A stretch of 64,000 bases of DNA. Source: Bacteroidaceae bacterium. Lineage in GTDB: Bacteria; Bacteroidota; Bacteroidia; Bacteroidales; Bacteroidaceae. Location of the stretch: contig JAFSPM010000045.1 of the NCBI GenBank assembly GCA_017442855.1, forward strand, positions 248,001 to 312,000, read 5' to 3'. Numbering within the stretch: position 1 is the stretch's first letter; each line of letters begins with the position of its first letter. The notes under the pieces were generated by a model. It searched no databases. It saw only the letters and a program-made list of their open reading frames with translations, and was not told the DNA's origin. The position numbers and the translations under genes were made by a program. This document shows, one piece after another, positions 32,634 to 51,864 of the stretch.

Positions 32634-34046
32634 ATGGAAAACAAGGAAAAGAAAGCTATTAGCCGACGCCGATTCTTAGGCTTAATGGGAGCTGGGGCAG
32701 CAGCCGCTGGTGCTATGACAATGACGGGGTGCGGCAACAAACAGAATGCGATGTATGATCCTGCGGGACATCACTCTACTCCTGTGCCTGGAGCCGACCA
32801 GATGACGTATCGTTCATGGCCTAATCTGGACAACGACCGCATTTCGTTGTTGGGCTACGGATGTATGCGTTGGCCAATGATCAATGATGCTGACGGTAGA
32901 CCACAAGCCGTTGATCAGGAGCGTGTGAATGAGCTGATTGACTATGCTATGGCTCATGGTGTTAATTATTACGATACATCACCTGCGTATTGCATGGGTC
33001 TTTCGGAAAAGGCCACTGGTGATGCACTGAAGAAATATCCGCGTGAGTCATATTACATCGCTACGAAGTTGTCGAACTTTGACCCAAGAACGCATAGTTA
33101 TGAAGGGTCTAAGTTGATGTATGAGAACTCTTTCAAGGAACTCTCGACCGACTATATAGACTACTACTTGTTGCATGTGATGGGACAAGGTGGTTTGGCT
33201 ATGTCAAAGCGTCGTTTCTTTGAGAATGGCATGTATGATTTTCTGCTCAAAGAGAAGGAGGCGGGTAGAATTCGTCATCTGGGCTATTCTTTCCATGGTG
33301 ATCAGGAGACGTTTGACTGGACAATGGAGGAACATGACAAGGGTAATTTCCATTGGGACTTTGTGCAGATTCAGATGAATTACCTGGATTGGCATCATGC
33401 TGTTGGGGCATCGATGACAGCAGAGTATATGTATACTGAACTAACCAAACGCGACATTCCTGTGGTGATTATGGAGCCGTTGCTGGGTGGTCGTTTGGCG
33501 AATATACCTAATCATTTGGTGGCACGACTGAAACAGGCTGAGCCTGAGAATAGTGTGGCATCGTGGGCTTTCCGTTTCTGTGGCTCACATACCAATGTGT
33601 ATTGTGCTTTGAGTGGTATGACGTATATGGAGAACCTACAGGATAATATCCGTAGTTTTGCTCCGTTGAAGGAGTTGACGGATGAGGAGAAGGAGTTCCT
33701 GTATGTGACGGCTGACTTGATGCAGGACTATCCTACAGTGCCTTGCAACCAGTGCAACTATTGCATGCCTTGTCCTTATGGATTAGATATTCCAGGTATC
33801 TTGACACACTACAACAAGTGTGTGAATCAGGGATATCTGCCAGAATCTCAGCAGGACGCTAACTATCGTGAGGCGCGTCAGGCGTTCCTCGTGGGGTATG
33901 ATCGTACGGTGCCAAGAATGCGACAGGCTTCGCATTGTACAAATTGCAATCAGTGCTCGCCGCATTGTCCGCAAATGATTAACATTCCTGACTGGATGAA
34001 TAGGATAGACGATTTTGTTGAGAAACTCAAGCAAAATACATTGTAA
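32634..34046 (+). CDS. Tat-exported aldo/keto reductase with C-terminal ferredoxin domain
   Basis: The N-terminus has a twin-arginine motif SRRRFLGL and a hydrophobic stretch ending in a lipobox-like MTGC. Residues 55-350 form an aldo/keto reductase barrel (LGYGCMRWP, YDTSPAYCMGLSE with the catalytic Tyr). The C-terminus has two clusters of cysteines, CNQCNYCMPCPYG and CTNCNQCSPHCPQ, for 4Fe-4S clusters. This fusion is common in anaerobes. With the GH88 gene upstream it may act on freed sugars or uronates; that is inference. Confidence 0.92.
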   Translation: MENKEKKAISRRRFLGLMGAGAAAAGAMTMTGCGNKQNAMYDPAGHHSTPVPGADQMTYRSWPNLDNDRISLLGYGCMRWPMINDADGRPQAVDQERVNELIDYAMAHGVNYYDTSPAYCMGLSEKATGDALKKYPRESYYIATKLSNFDPRTHSYEGSKLMYENSFKELSTDYIDYYLLHVMGQGGLAMSKRRFFENGMYDFLLKEKEAGRIRHLGYSFHGDQETFDWTMEEHDKGNFHWDFVQIQMNYLDWHHAVGASMTAEYMYTELTKRDIPVVIMEPLLGGRLANIPNHLVARLKQAEPENSVASWAFRFCGSHTNVYCALSGMTYMENLQDNIRSFAPLKELTDEEKEFLYVTADLMQDYPTVPCNQCNYCMPCPYGLDIPGILTHYNKCVNQGYLPESQQDANYREARQAFLVGYDRTVPRMRQASHCTNCNQCSPHCPQMINIPDWMNRIDDFVEKLKQNTL

Positions 34047-34130
34047 CAGCAATTCCCCCGCGGCACGGGGGAATTTGCATGAATATGCATAGACGATTTT
34101 GTTGAAAAACTCAAGCAAAATACATTGTAA
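34005..34130 (+). repeat. Duplicated gene 3' end around a hairpin
   Basis: The last 42 bp of the aldo/keto reductase gene (34005-34046, encoding IDDFVEKLKQNTL and stop) recur at 34089-34130 with one change, GAG to GAA, which is synonymous. Between them is a perfect 9-bp hairpin, AATTCCCCC/GGGGGAATT (34051-34075). The second copy has no start codon and is not a gene. Confidence 0.9.
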
Positions 34131-34135
34131 AAGAA

Positions 34136-34164
34136 AAAGGCTGCAGAAATGCAGCCTTTGTTTT
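34136..34164. terminator. Convergent terminator
   Basis: AAAGGCTGCA (34136-34145) pairs perfectly with TGCAGCCTTT (34150-34159), followed by T residues on the plus strand and, on the minus strand, by a T-rich run; it serves both convergent genes. Confidence 0.88.
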
Positions 34165-49129: not shown

Positions 49130-50590
49130 TTATTTCACTGGTTTGTAAGTTGGAACCAGCAGCTTCATGCAAATCCAGCCAATGAGGTAGGCAACAGAGC
49201 AATAGCAGAAAATGATGAAGTAACCAGCAGGCTTACCTTGGAACCCCATAAACACCATCTGCGTACTATCAGCATAGTCGAACAATTTGCCAGAACCATA
49301 GTTGATGAGGAATGAACTCAAGCCGCCAGCAGCACTGTTCAAACTTGTGATCGTAGCAATGGCACGATGTGGAAACAGATCGCTACCCACAGAATACAGA
49401 TTAGCTGACCACGATTGATGCGCTGCCCCCACCAAACCTATCAAAATGATAGGGAACCAGTAAGAAAAGTTGCCCAAATGTTGTGCAAACAAACCCAACA
49501 ACGGGAACAAGGCAAATATCAACATCGCCCTCATACGCGACTTATAAGCGTTCCAACCCGTACGATTGATGATGATGGTAGGCAGCTTACCGCCATAGAG
49601 CGACAACATAGTAATGGCGTACAGCACGAAAATCAGCATCTGAGCGGTGGGATTGTCAGAAGCCAACCCATAGACATCCGACAGATAGGCAGGTGTCCAG
49701 AACAAGAAGAACCACCACACACAATCCGTAGTAAACTTACCCAGGAGAATCGCCCATGTCTGGCGCAATTTCAAACATTGCAAGACGGTATATTTTGGCA
49801 AGCCATCTTCTTCGTTTGGCTCCGCTTTCTCTTCAACGACATCTTGCTGGATGTAAGCCAGTTCAGCTGCATTTACACCCTTATGCTCCGTAGGTTTGTC
49901 GTAGATAAACACCCAGAACGCCATCCAGATAAAGCCCAAGGCACCAATGATGACAAACGCCATTTCCCAGCCGTTTCCCACACCTATATTCTTGAAATAT
50001 CGAGCCAGCAAAGGAATGCTCAGCGGTGCCACCAGTGCACCTACCGTAGAGCCGGCATTGAAGATAGAGGTAGCAAACGCACGGTCTTTCTGTGGGAAAT
50101 ACTCAGCTGTCACTTTCACAGCCGATGGGAAGTTACCCGCTTCACCACAAGCCAGTACGATGCGAGCGGCTATGAAGAAATACACACTCACCATAGCCAC
50201 CAAAGAAGCTGTTTCACCTACAGCACCCACCATGCCCGCAGCATCATCCAGTCCTACCACCTGTTCGGTAGCCCATCCACAAACTGCATGCAGACAGGCA
50301 CCAGCCGACCAGATACCTATGGCCCACAGGTATCCTCGTTTTGTACCAAGCCAGTCGATGATGCGACCCGAGAAAATGTTAGCAAAAGCATATACAATAG
50401 AAAACACCGCTGCTACATTGCCATAATCTGAATCGCTCCAATGAAACTCGGGTGCTATAAAGTCCTTCCATGTGAGTGATAAAACCTGACGATCAAGATA
50501 ATTCACGGTAGTAGCAATAAACAGCATGATGCAGATAATCCATCGCACATTGCTCATTTTCTTTTGTAGGTCGTTAGTGCTATTCGTCAT
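49130..50590 (-). CDS. MFS transporter, hexuronate/anion symporter type
   Basis: The protein has 12 hydrophobic helices and the motifs of the anion:cation symporter (ExuT-like) branch: TVNYLDRQVLS in helix 1, GRIIDWLGTKRGYL after helix 2, and ACGEAGNFPSAVKVTAEYFP in helix 4-5. Hexuronates are the usual cargo. The ATG at 50590 gives 486 residues; a TTG at 50620 lies at the promoter -7 box and is rejected. The gene stands alone between two inverted copies of a repeat. Confidence 0.9.
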   Translation of the reverse strand: MTNSTNDLQKKMSNVRWIICIMLFIATTVNYLDRQVLSLTWKDFIAPEFHWSDSDYGNVAAVFSIVYAFANIFSGRIIDWLGTKRGYLWAIGIWSAGACLHAVCGWATEQVVGLDDAAGMVGAVGETASLVAMVSVYFFIAARIVLACGEAGNFPSAVKVTAEYFPQKDRAFATSIFNAGSTVGALVAPLSIPLLARYFKNIGVGNGWEMAFVIIGALGFIWMAFWVFIYDKPTEHKGVNAAELAYIQQDVVEEKAEPNEEDGLPKYTVLQCLKLRQTWAILLGKFTTDCVWWFFLFWTPAYLSDVYGLASDNPTAQMLIFVLYAITMLSLYGGKLPTIIINRTGWNAYKSRMRAMLIFALFPLLGLFAQHLGNFSYWFPIILIGLVGAAHQSWSANLYSVGSDLFPHRAIATITSLNSAAGGLSSFLINYGSGKLFDYADSTQMVFMGFQGKPAGYFIIFCYCSVAYLIGWICMKLLVPTYKPVK

Positions 50591-50617
50591 AATGATAATT
50601 TTAAGCTTGGTTTCTGA

Positions 50618-50648
50618 CAAAAATACTCTTTTTAATCACTCTTTGCAA
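50618..50648 (-). promoter_or_regulatory. MFS gene promoter
   Basis: On the minus strand TTG (50648-50646), 20 bp, TATTTTTG (50625-50618). Its position supports the ATG at 50590 as start. Confidence 0.65.
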
Positions 50649-50860
50649 CAAATTGCATATTTATTTTCAATTTTGCTTGCAAGATTAAAAAATATCCTTT
50701 AACTTTGCAGCGTTGAATAAAGGTTAATAGTTCTAAGTGCAAAGTTTTTTAATTGCAGAATTAGTTTTTAGGTAAAAAAGCATAGGTTAGTTTTATTAGG
50801 TTAAAGTTGATTAAAGTAAGGGAGTACGTGATGTATTTCCTTTCTTTTTTTATCCTAGCT

Positions 50861-51022
50861 TTAGTGTTGTTAAAACTGTCTGAGTTTCTTCCACTAAAAA
50901 TCGCTCACGTTTTCCTAAACCGCAAAAACTCGCTACGCTCAAACAGGTTTGCGCTTTCACACGGAAAACTTTCCCGATTTTCTTAACGCTTCAGAAACAC
51001 ATGCCAGTTTTAGCAGCACTAA
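50861..51022 (-). repeat. Inverted-repeat-ended intergenic element, copy R
   Basis: This 162-bp element has arms TTAGTGTTGTTAAAACTG (50861-50878) and its complement (51005-51022), with two G-T pairs. The body is the reverse complement of copy L without L's central insert. The arm sequences differ from those of L except for TAAAACTG. The arm at 51019-51022 runs into the stop codon of an old copy of the SIMPL gene end. The rest of 50621-51099 shows no gene. Confidence 0.8.
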
Positions 51023-51144
51023 TCTTTCAAAGAATAAGTCACAGTTGTAACTACGCGAAGTTTTATGACTATTATTTCCCCGCAGCGCGGGGAAATATGC
51101 TAATCCTTCAGCGAGTACGTTACTGTTGTAACTACGCGCAGCTT
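51019..51144 (-). repeat. Duplicated 3' end of the SIMPL gene around a hairpin
   Basis: The final 15 codons of the gene (51100-51144, KLRVVTTVTYSLKD and stop) recur at 51019-51063. The two copies encode the same 14 residues and stop, but differ at nine codons, all synonymously. Between them is a perfect 11-bp hairpin, TATTTCCCCGC/GCGGGGAAATA (51073-51097). The outer copy has no start and is a remnant. Confidence 0.9.
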
Positions 51145-51795
51145 CTTGATATAAGGCGTAGTGTCATCACGGTCTTCGATAGAGAAAGTGCCCTGAGTAG
51201 CCTGCATAATGCCACCAAGACGACTATTGCTATTCTCGGCAAACTGCAAAGCAGCCTGTTCAGCATTCTTGATAGCCTCCTGCATCATCTTCAGCTTCAT
51301 CTCCTGGAAGTCGGTGAAATCATAATTGATGTACCCCTCGTCGATGGCGATGCCCTGATTCAGTAGGTCACCAATCTGGCCCGATGCTTTCCTTACCTCA
51401 TCCACTTTCTTGGTTTTCACGGTAATACCCGCCGTCATCTGATAGCGGTAAGGCGACTTGTTCTCGTTCCACATATTGCTCGTTCTGTCATACACTGATG
51501 GCGAGTTGAAGGAAATCTCATCCTCACTCAATCCGTTGTCCTTGATGAAACGCACAATGATGTCGCGTGTCCTGTTCACACTCTGGTAGAGTGAGGGTAG
51601 GTCGTTGCCCTGTTGTGAGAATGTCAGCGGCCATGTCACCGTGTTGGCAGGTACCTCATTCTCAGAAAGTCCTTTCACTGTTACCTGTCTGTCTTTGTTC
51701 ACAAAATTGTCGATGCCTGCCTTCAGGCAGTAACCCATAATCACGAGGCCCAGCGCAATAATTGCCGCCTCAATAATTCTGTTTCCCTTTTCCAT
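51100..51795 (-). CDS. SIMPL-domain (DUF541) protein
   Basis: The start MEKGNRIIEAAIIALGLVIM is chosen over one 36 bp upstream; it gives a 231-residue protein with an N-terminal membrane anchor (about 7-27). The rest is a SIMPL/DUF541 domain (RQVTVKGLSENEVPANTVTW at about 38, and the closing KKLRVVTTVTYSL strand). Such proteins are periplasmic, form large oligomers in some cases, and have no settled function. The gene's 3' end is duplicated downstream. Confidence 0.88.
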   Translation of the reverse strand: MEKGNRIIEAAIIALGLVIMGYCLKAGIDNFVNKDRQVTVKGLSENEVPANTVTWPLTFSQQGNDLPSLYQSVNRTRDIIVRFIKDNGLSEDEISFNSPSVYDRTSNMWNENKSPYRYQMTAGITVKTKKVDEVRKASGQIGDLLNQGIAIDEGYINYDFTDFQEMKLKMMQEAIKNAEQAALQFAENSNSRLGGIMQATQGTFSIEDRDDTTPYIKKLRVVTTVTYSLKD

Positions 51796-51864
51796 ATTTA
51801 TTAATTTTAAAATTATCAATCCTACACACATCCATTGCGTCTCTTCGAGCTTTAACGTTCAACG

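Follow-up and report, generated by a model that had tools for sequence, protein, structure and literature searches.

Why should the last codons of an ordinary chromosomal gene be encoded a second time, just past its stop codon and on the far side of a hairpin, with many base changes and no change of residue? The question is raised by a SIMPL (DUF541) gene in the 64,000-nucleotide stretch of Bacteroidaceae DNA analysed here (the window).

The SIMPL gene end and its second copy

The features at this locus are as follows.

49130..50620, minus strand: MFS transporter gene, the downstream neighbour of SIMPL (ORF call; PF07690)
50608..50835, minus strand: intergenic DNA upstream of the MFS gene; in relatives its homologue lies behind EFR1
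about 50861..51018, no strand: palindromic interspersed repeat abutting the outer SIMPL stop codon, with more copies in the same genome
51019..51063, minus strand: outer copy, a second gene end with 9 synonymous codon differences, beyond the reach of translation past the inner stop
51073..51097, no strand: perfect hairpin between the copies, 11-bp stem and 3-nt loop, of the CCCC/GGGG type
51100..51144, minus strand: inner copy, the functional gene end, KLRVVTTVTYSLKD plus stop (from the sequence)
51100..51831, minus strand: SIMPL (DUF541) gene (ORF call; PF04402, E 9.5e-22)

The original prediction, that the last 14 residues and the stop codon are encoded twice around an 11-bp hairpin and that 9 of the 15 codons differ, all of them synonymously, proved exact. 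The copies lie within a direct repeat (51019-51068 and 51100-51149) that is 78% identical over 50 nt, and the longest identical block common to them is 14 nt. Read in the frame of the gene, the 45-nt ends (KLRVVTTVTYSLKD and stop) differ by 9 nt, one in each of the 9 of 15 codons affected; eight of the changes are at third positions, one is at a first position (CTG/TTG), and none alters a residue. Synonymous changes make up 37 of the 135 single changes possible in this block, and nine of nine would be expected by chance with a probability of ~2e-5. One codon further upstream, towards the hairpin, the residue differs (AAG versus ATA), indicating that the register ends near the hairpin and that the copy is ragged there.

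We compared the surroundings of SIMPL with those in related genomes. The gene order in three relatives (L023, L024 and L029) is SIMPL, EFR1 family ferredoxin and MFS transporter, the ferredoxin being named by search for L023 and by sequence likeness for L024 and L029. EFR1 is absent between SIMPL and the MFS gene here, and the genome, estimated to be 80% complete, has only ~30% identical matches to it. Its place is taken by the hairpin, the outer copy and the palindromic repeat. A second SIMPL end was found at 0 of 57 other loci, for which 0.3-2.5 kb of downstream DNA was examined (some loci are counted twice, and 8 distinct close relatives are included). The pattern that would speak against the prediction, relatives all carrying both copies with random nonsynonymous drift in the outer one, was thus absent. 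A weak match to the SIMPL end in L048 failed the peptide test and was rejected.

By eye, three of the four EFR1-linked relatives show a CCC/GGG inverted repeat directly behind the stop of their SIMPL gene, so the hairpin found here may be the one that normally stands behind a SIMPL stop. The inner end is closer in its codons, by 2 sites, to all four EFR1-linked relatives, and the affinities are mixed in four others. This would weakly fit import from an EFR1-linked lineage into a lineage that had lost EFR1; the codon affinities are weak and do not tell the native end from the donor end.

The palindromic repeat is about 155-158 bp long and has terminal inverted repeats, with further copies at L063-L071. 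Some copies have variable ends, in which the two arms tend to vary in step. The repeat also occurs in relatives, at no more than 92% identity.

Gene-end copies elsewhere in the genome

We scanned 1.23 Mb of this genome (the window plus 1.17 Mb more) on nucleotides alone and obtained 13 matches at 927 gene 3' ends. From these we picked seven genes, on the rule that the copy must hold the gene end in register: SIMPL, an aldo/keto reductase gene, guaA (L120), an S9 peptidase gene (L131), two amidase genes (L182 and L216) and an acetyl-CoA hydrolase gene (L176). The two amidase genes are of one type, the Amidase_2 profile having been tested for L182. Six of the 13 matches were dropped: C15:128852 as an overlapping repeat, C15:47076 as an interspersed repeat, and four more. 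C12:27574 and C12:189372 were dropped as short or distant, and C37:332077 and C15:43449 as near-end copies whose C-termini differ. At the latter two sites (G000:C37:332077 and G000:C15:43449) the near-end sequence recurs downstream and is then followed by a different C-terminus, as if a new end had been pasted before an old one. We also dropped a stop-anchored match in L127, which we read as a pair of permease-like paralogues.

The mirror scan of the 927 gene 5' ends gave 5 matches, by eye repeats or chance, and none was read as a displaced start (7 versus 0 of 927 for 3' and 5' ends; Fisher p 0.015). Counted without inspection, raw repeat matches numbered 13/1667 at ORF ends against 8/1665 at random points within ORFs, and 4/793 against 1/790. 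This excess is only modest, so it is register, synonymy and empty sites, and not the number of matches, that carry the case. The stretches scanned in relatives held 3 gene-end copies among 903 genes, namely aldo/keto reductase in G027 and G100 and an esterase (BD-FAE) in G100. Those of G013, G062 (100 kb, a single-contig genome) and G108 held no in-register gene-end copy with a stop, only chance-like matches of 12-13 nt. At G027:C3, ~18206 (minus-strand scan coordinate), a gene 5' end (ATGAACTACGGATATGTG) is copied upstream with residue changes, possibly a displaced start.

The aldo/keto reductase case lies within the window and surfaced in a control scan of the window's ORF ends, the last 42 nt of the gene being repeated past a hairpin.

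32634..34046, plus strand: aldo/keto reductase gene with a 4Fe-4S region (PF00248)
34005..34046, plus strand: inner copy, the last 14 codons including the stop
34051..34075, no strand: hairpin between the copies, 10-bp stem
34088..34129, plus strand: outer copy with 1 synonymous difference, ahead of the native terminator at 34136-34159

This scar is found at the same place in three species genomes (copies in relatives: L141 and L142). Its two copies are 1-2 nt apart within a species and 3-9 nt apart between species; each species has codons of its own in both copies, as though the pair had been homogenised.

Over eight loci, the seven genes and the G100 esterase, 28 of the 30 differing codons are synonymous, where drift would be expected to give a synonymous share of 22-25% (p ~5e-13 even at 30%); the two amidase genes are alike and perhaps not independent in this count. 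Residue changes are confined to two codons, one at the ragged edge of the SIMPL copy and the other in the copy of the acetyl-CoA hydrolase end. The scan relied on nucleotide likeness, which does not bias it towards synonymous changes but does cause old, decayed scars to be missed. The duplicated lengths range from 21 to about 50 nt. Decay is visible in two outer copies: that of one amidase gene has lost a base before the stop, and that of an M23 peptidase (envC-like) gene in the relative G008 has accumulated residue changes. The latter indicates that outer copies are without lasting selection.

Comparison with relatives places the outer copy in its native context at all five small-insert loci tested. 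The outer copy of the aldo/keto reductase gene is followed by a terminator as in G013 and others, that of guaA by a downstream gene that shows the native context, and that of the S9 peptidase gene by a terminator matching G008. For acetyl-CoA hydrolase, the single end is contiguous with the same downstream DNA in G008, G135, G027 and G100, and the native context of the G100 esterase copy is seen in G013 and G135. These five contexts indicate that the outer copy is normally the old end. The empty sites in relatives lack the inserted hairpin or gene DNA, and the junction falls inside the old gene end. Affinities of the ends themselves vary. All 3 differing sites of guaA place the outer end, and none the inner, with the nearest relative, G008; of seven other relatives six lean to the inner end and one ties. 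For the S9 peptidase gene, the outer end is favoured by 3 of 9 relatives and the inner by 6 of 9.

Two more scars, which enclose larger inserts, came from a search of these 1.23 Mb for orphan gene ends with no limit on their distance from the gene; they were found by peptide match and are left out of the synonymy count. In one (L186:9640-10301), the end of the envC-like gene is followed by xpt (TIGR01744) and then by the displaced end, 661 bp on. Over 15 codons the two envC ends show six synonymous changes and one other. This scar is common to G008. The inner end sides with G008 and G013, in both of which xpt is beside envC. Of six relatives that lack this arrangement, five side with the outer end; the exception is G135. 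In the other (L222:4290-13245), the end of a metallophosphatase gene and its copy lie about 8.95 kb apart with ordinary genes between them, encoding APH-family, TPR, thioredoxin-like and outer membrane proteins, a histidine kinase and a response regulator. Among the scanned proteins of this 9-kb cargo there was no match to an integrase or transposase family, and the xpt insert holds xpt only. None of the small inserts could accommodate an ORF.

A perfect hairpin (stem of at least 7) lies by the stop of all seven genes with gene-end copies and of 101 of the 920 others, and a hairpin of the CCCC/GGGG type is present at five of the seven against 24 of the 920. The acetyl-CoA hydrolase hairpin takes in part of the gene end. 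When the two excluded near-end cases are added, 8 of 9 have a hairpin between their copies, the exception being one near-end case. The converse fails: of the 36 CCCC/GGGG hairpins sampled, 27 are not flanked by a repeat. Within the literature searched, the link of hairpins to displaced gene ends appears new.

Two other roles for the hairpins and copies were considered and rejected. An intrinsic terminator would be followed by a T run, and none follows the SIMPL or aldo/keto reductase hairpins. Readthrough or ribosome bypass into the outer copy does not fit copy spacings that are not consistently in frame (81, 84, 57 and 62 nt, and 87 and 79 nt for the aldo/keto reductase copies of G027 and G100), and it would leave the peptide unchanged. 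The sole Rfam match, to the L20 leader, was below its gathering score. Hairpins of the form CTCCCCTNNNNAGGGGAG recur many times (in this genome on C37, C12, C15, C17 and C20), and the 1.23 Mb hold 36 CCCC/GGGG against 5 GGGG/CCCC hairpins.

Origin of the repeated ends

We consider it rather probable that the repeats are scars of displaced gene ends, left when the gene end and hairpin of a related lineage were imported and the old end was pushed downstream. Donor DNA carrying a diverged but functional gene end with a hairpin behind it would have recombined with the resident gene. The upstream side would have been joined by homology within the gene, as we infer, and the downstream side, where homology was lacking, would have been joined illegitimately at a point ~20-60 nt before the resident stop codon. 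The resulting order would be new end, hairpin, old end and old downstream DNA, and the outer copy would from then on be free to decay. Larger donor DNA would produce the same scar around whole genes. The near-exclusive synonymy would follow from both copies having served, until a short time ago, as the end of a working gene. Where the import stops is probably determined by the hairpin, which would block trimming or strand exchange; this step, suggested by the association of hairpins with the copies, is the weakest of the scheme.

A donor having the inner end together with the same hairpin was found for no locus. The gene bodies are continuous and homologous, and no left crossover was found in guaA, the one gene examined for it: its identity to G008 in 100-nt windows is 0.80-0.89, with no clear left edge and with the last window lowest. 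The claim that a diverged, functional end displaced the old one, as opposed to a local duplication, draws its support mainly from the other members of the class. The aldo/keto reductase copies, alike within each species, fit import poorly and require gene conversion, or else more than one event at that site. Beyond the individual scars, we tentatively entertain a recurrent, 3'-end-biased process in gut Bacteroidales, in which a hairpin behind the stop would bound the import of alleles, gene ends would be overwritten again and again from other lineages, and old ends would be left as datable scars.

The near identity of the aldo/keto reductase copies is what would be expected of a mobile hairpin element that inserts at gene ends with a long target-site duplication, its copies being identical at birth and diverging later in place. 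Such an element would also explain why each insert amounts to a hairpin plus one gene-end copy, and why five of seven hairpins share one broad type. It is nevertheless unlikely: noncoding drift should be ~75% nonsynonymous, against the 28 of 30 changed codons that are synonymous, 27 of 36 CCCC/GGGG hairpins stand without a flanking repeat, and the duplicated lengths are not constant (21 to about 50 nt). The Y1 (REP-associated type) transposase PF01797 has 0 matches in the genome, which is ~80% complete. The anatomy at the gene end is equally that of an integrase-borne element, a prophage or island whose integration rebuilt the 3' end of the target gene and whose body was lost afterwards. guaA, a site of island integration, is among the genes affected, and orphan 59-nt guaA 3' ends lie away from guaA in two members of the genus (G175:C84:184396-184454 and G065:C10:226728-226786), as islands at guaA would give. 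Even so, a separate attachment site would be required for each of nine different genes or gene families, and we regard this origin as improbable. The prophage comparison made in the original prediction gained no support either, as no viral contig in IMG/VR matches a degenerate pattern of the SIMPL end, no integrase or transposase family occurs among the scanned proteins of the 9-kb insert, and the xpt insert is xpt only.

Template switching at a quasi-palindrome could make hairpin and duplication in one step, which would explain their occurring together, and selection or gene conversion keeping the peptide of the outer copy would explain the within-species likeness at the aldo/keto reductase gene. 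We think this quite improbable, since the nine differences at SIMPL and the six at one amidase gene exceed what conversion would leave, and the decay of the envC-xpt outer copy in G008 and the base lost before the stop of the amidase copy speak against lasting selection. That the repeats are chimeras of co-occurring strains assembled into one metagenome bin might be suggested by the state of the genome (estimated to be 80% complete and 3.3% contaminated, in 49 contigs) and by the close relatives, which are labelled as metagenome bins. This explanation is very improbable, because separate genomes of three species carry the aldo/keto reductase scar at one and the same place, and two genomes share the envC-xpt scar; the 14-nt longest identical block of the SIMPL copies would, moreover, be short for k-mer joining.

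Relation to known gene-end displacements

We class the displaced gene ends as a variant of one-sided recombination scars and not as a member of a mobile-element family, because they have no endonuclease or integrase, though they work like homology-facilitated illegitimate recombination and fungal C-terminal displacement. Prophages and islands are known to restore the 3' end of their target gene on integration, as at icd and guaA. Such restoration resembles the present case in providing a functional replacement end with synonymous changes next to a displaced original end, whereas here there is no integrase and no element body, and several unrelated genes are the targets.

Each displaced gene end records, to the base, the point at which imported DNA ceased to match the chromosome. 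They would allow imports of genes to be counted and roughly dated without knowledge of the donor, and would allow a test of whether hairpins steer where imported DNA is cut off. The xpt and 9-kb inserts suggest that a gut lineage has acquired whole genes by one-sided recombination, with no mobile element involved.

Homology-facilitated illegitimate recombination has been applied to immunity-gene arrays of V. cholerae and their stranded immunity genes, in an account that also mentions orphaned Rhs 3' regions (PMC5361080). As described there, one side is homologous and the other illegitimate, and new 3' material comes to stand ahead of old material left behind, as in the present case. What is stranded here, in contrast, amounts to no more than 7-18 codons from an ordinary housekeeping gene; the junction bears a hairpin, and both ends encode the same peptide. 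Rhs C-terminal displacement likewise orphans old 3' regions behind a new one; the Rhs tips are different toxin domains, while here the peptide of the two ends is the same.

Fungal mitochondrial genes have been described with a foreign C-terminus, a mobile ORF and a displaced native C-terminus, and with divergence that is largely synonymous (PMC3630166). The likeness lies in the foreign end fused to the gene, the native end displaced and the mostly synonymous divergence. In the fungal case, on that account, an endonuclease ORF between the ends drives mobility; here there is only a hairpin or ordinary genes, and no endonuclease ORF was found between new and old C-terminus in the inserts examined. 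The recurrent overwriting considered above could conceivably be a bacterial counterpart of the mitochondrial displacement that needs no endonuclease, a parallel we draw with considerable doubt. A displaced end closer to relatives, a trait of the fungal type, is seen at guaA for the nearest relative only and at envC for most relatives, and the S9 peptidase gene is split.
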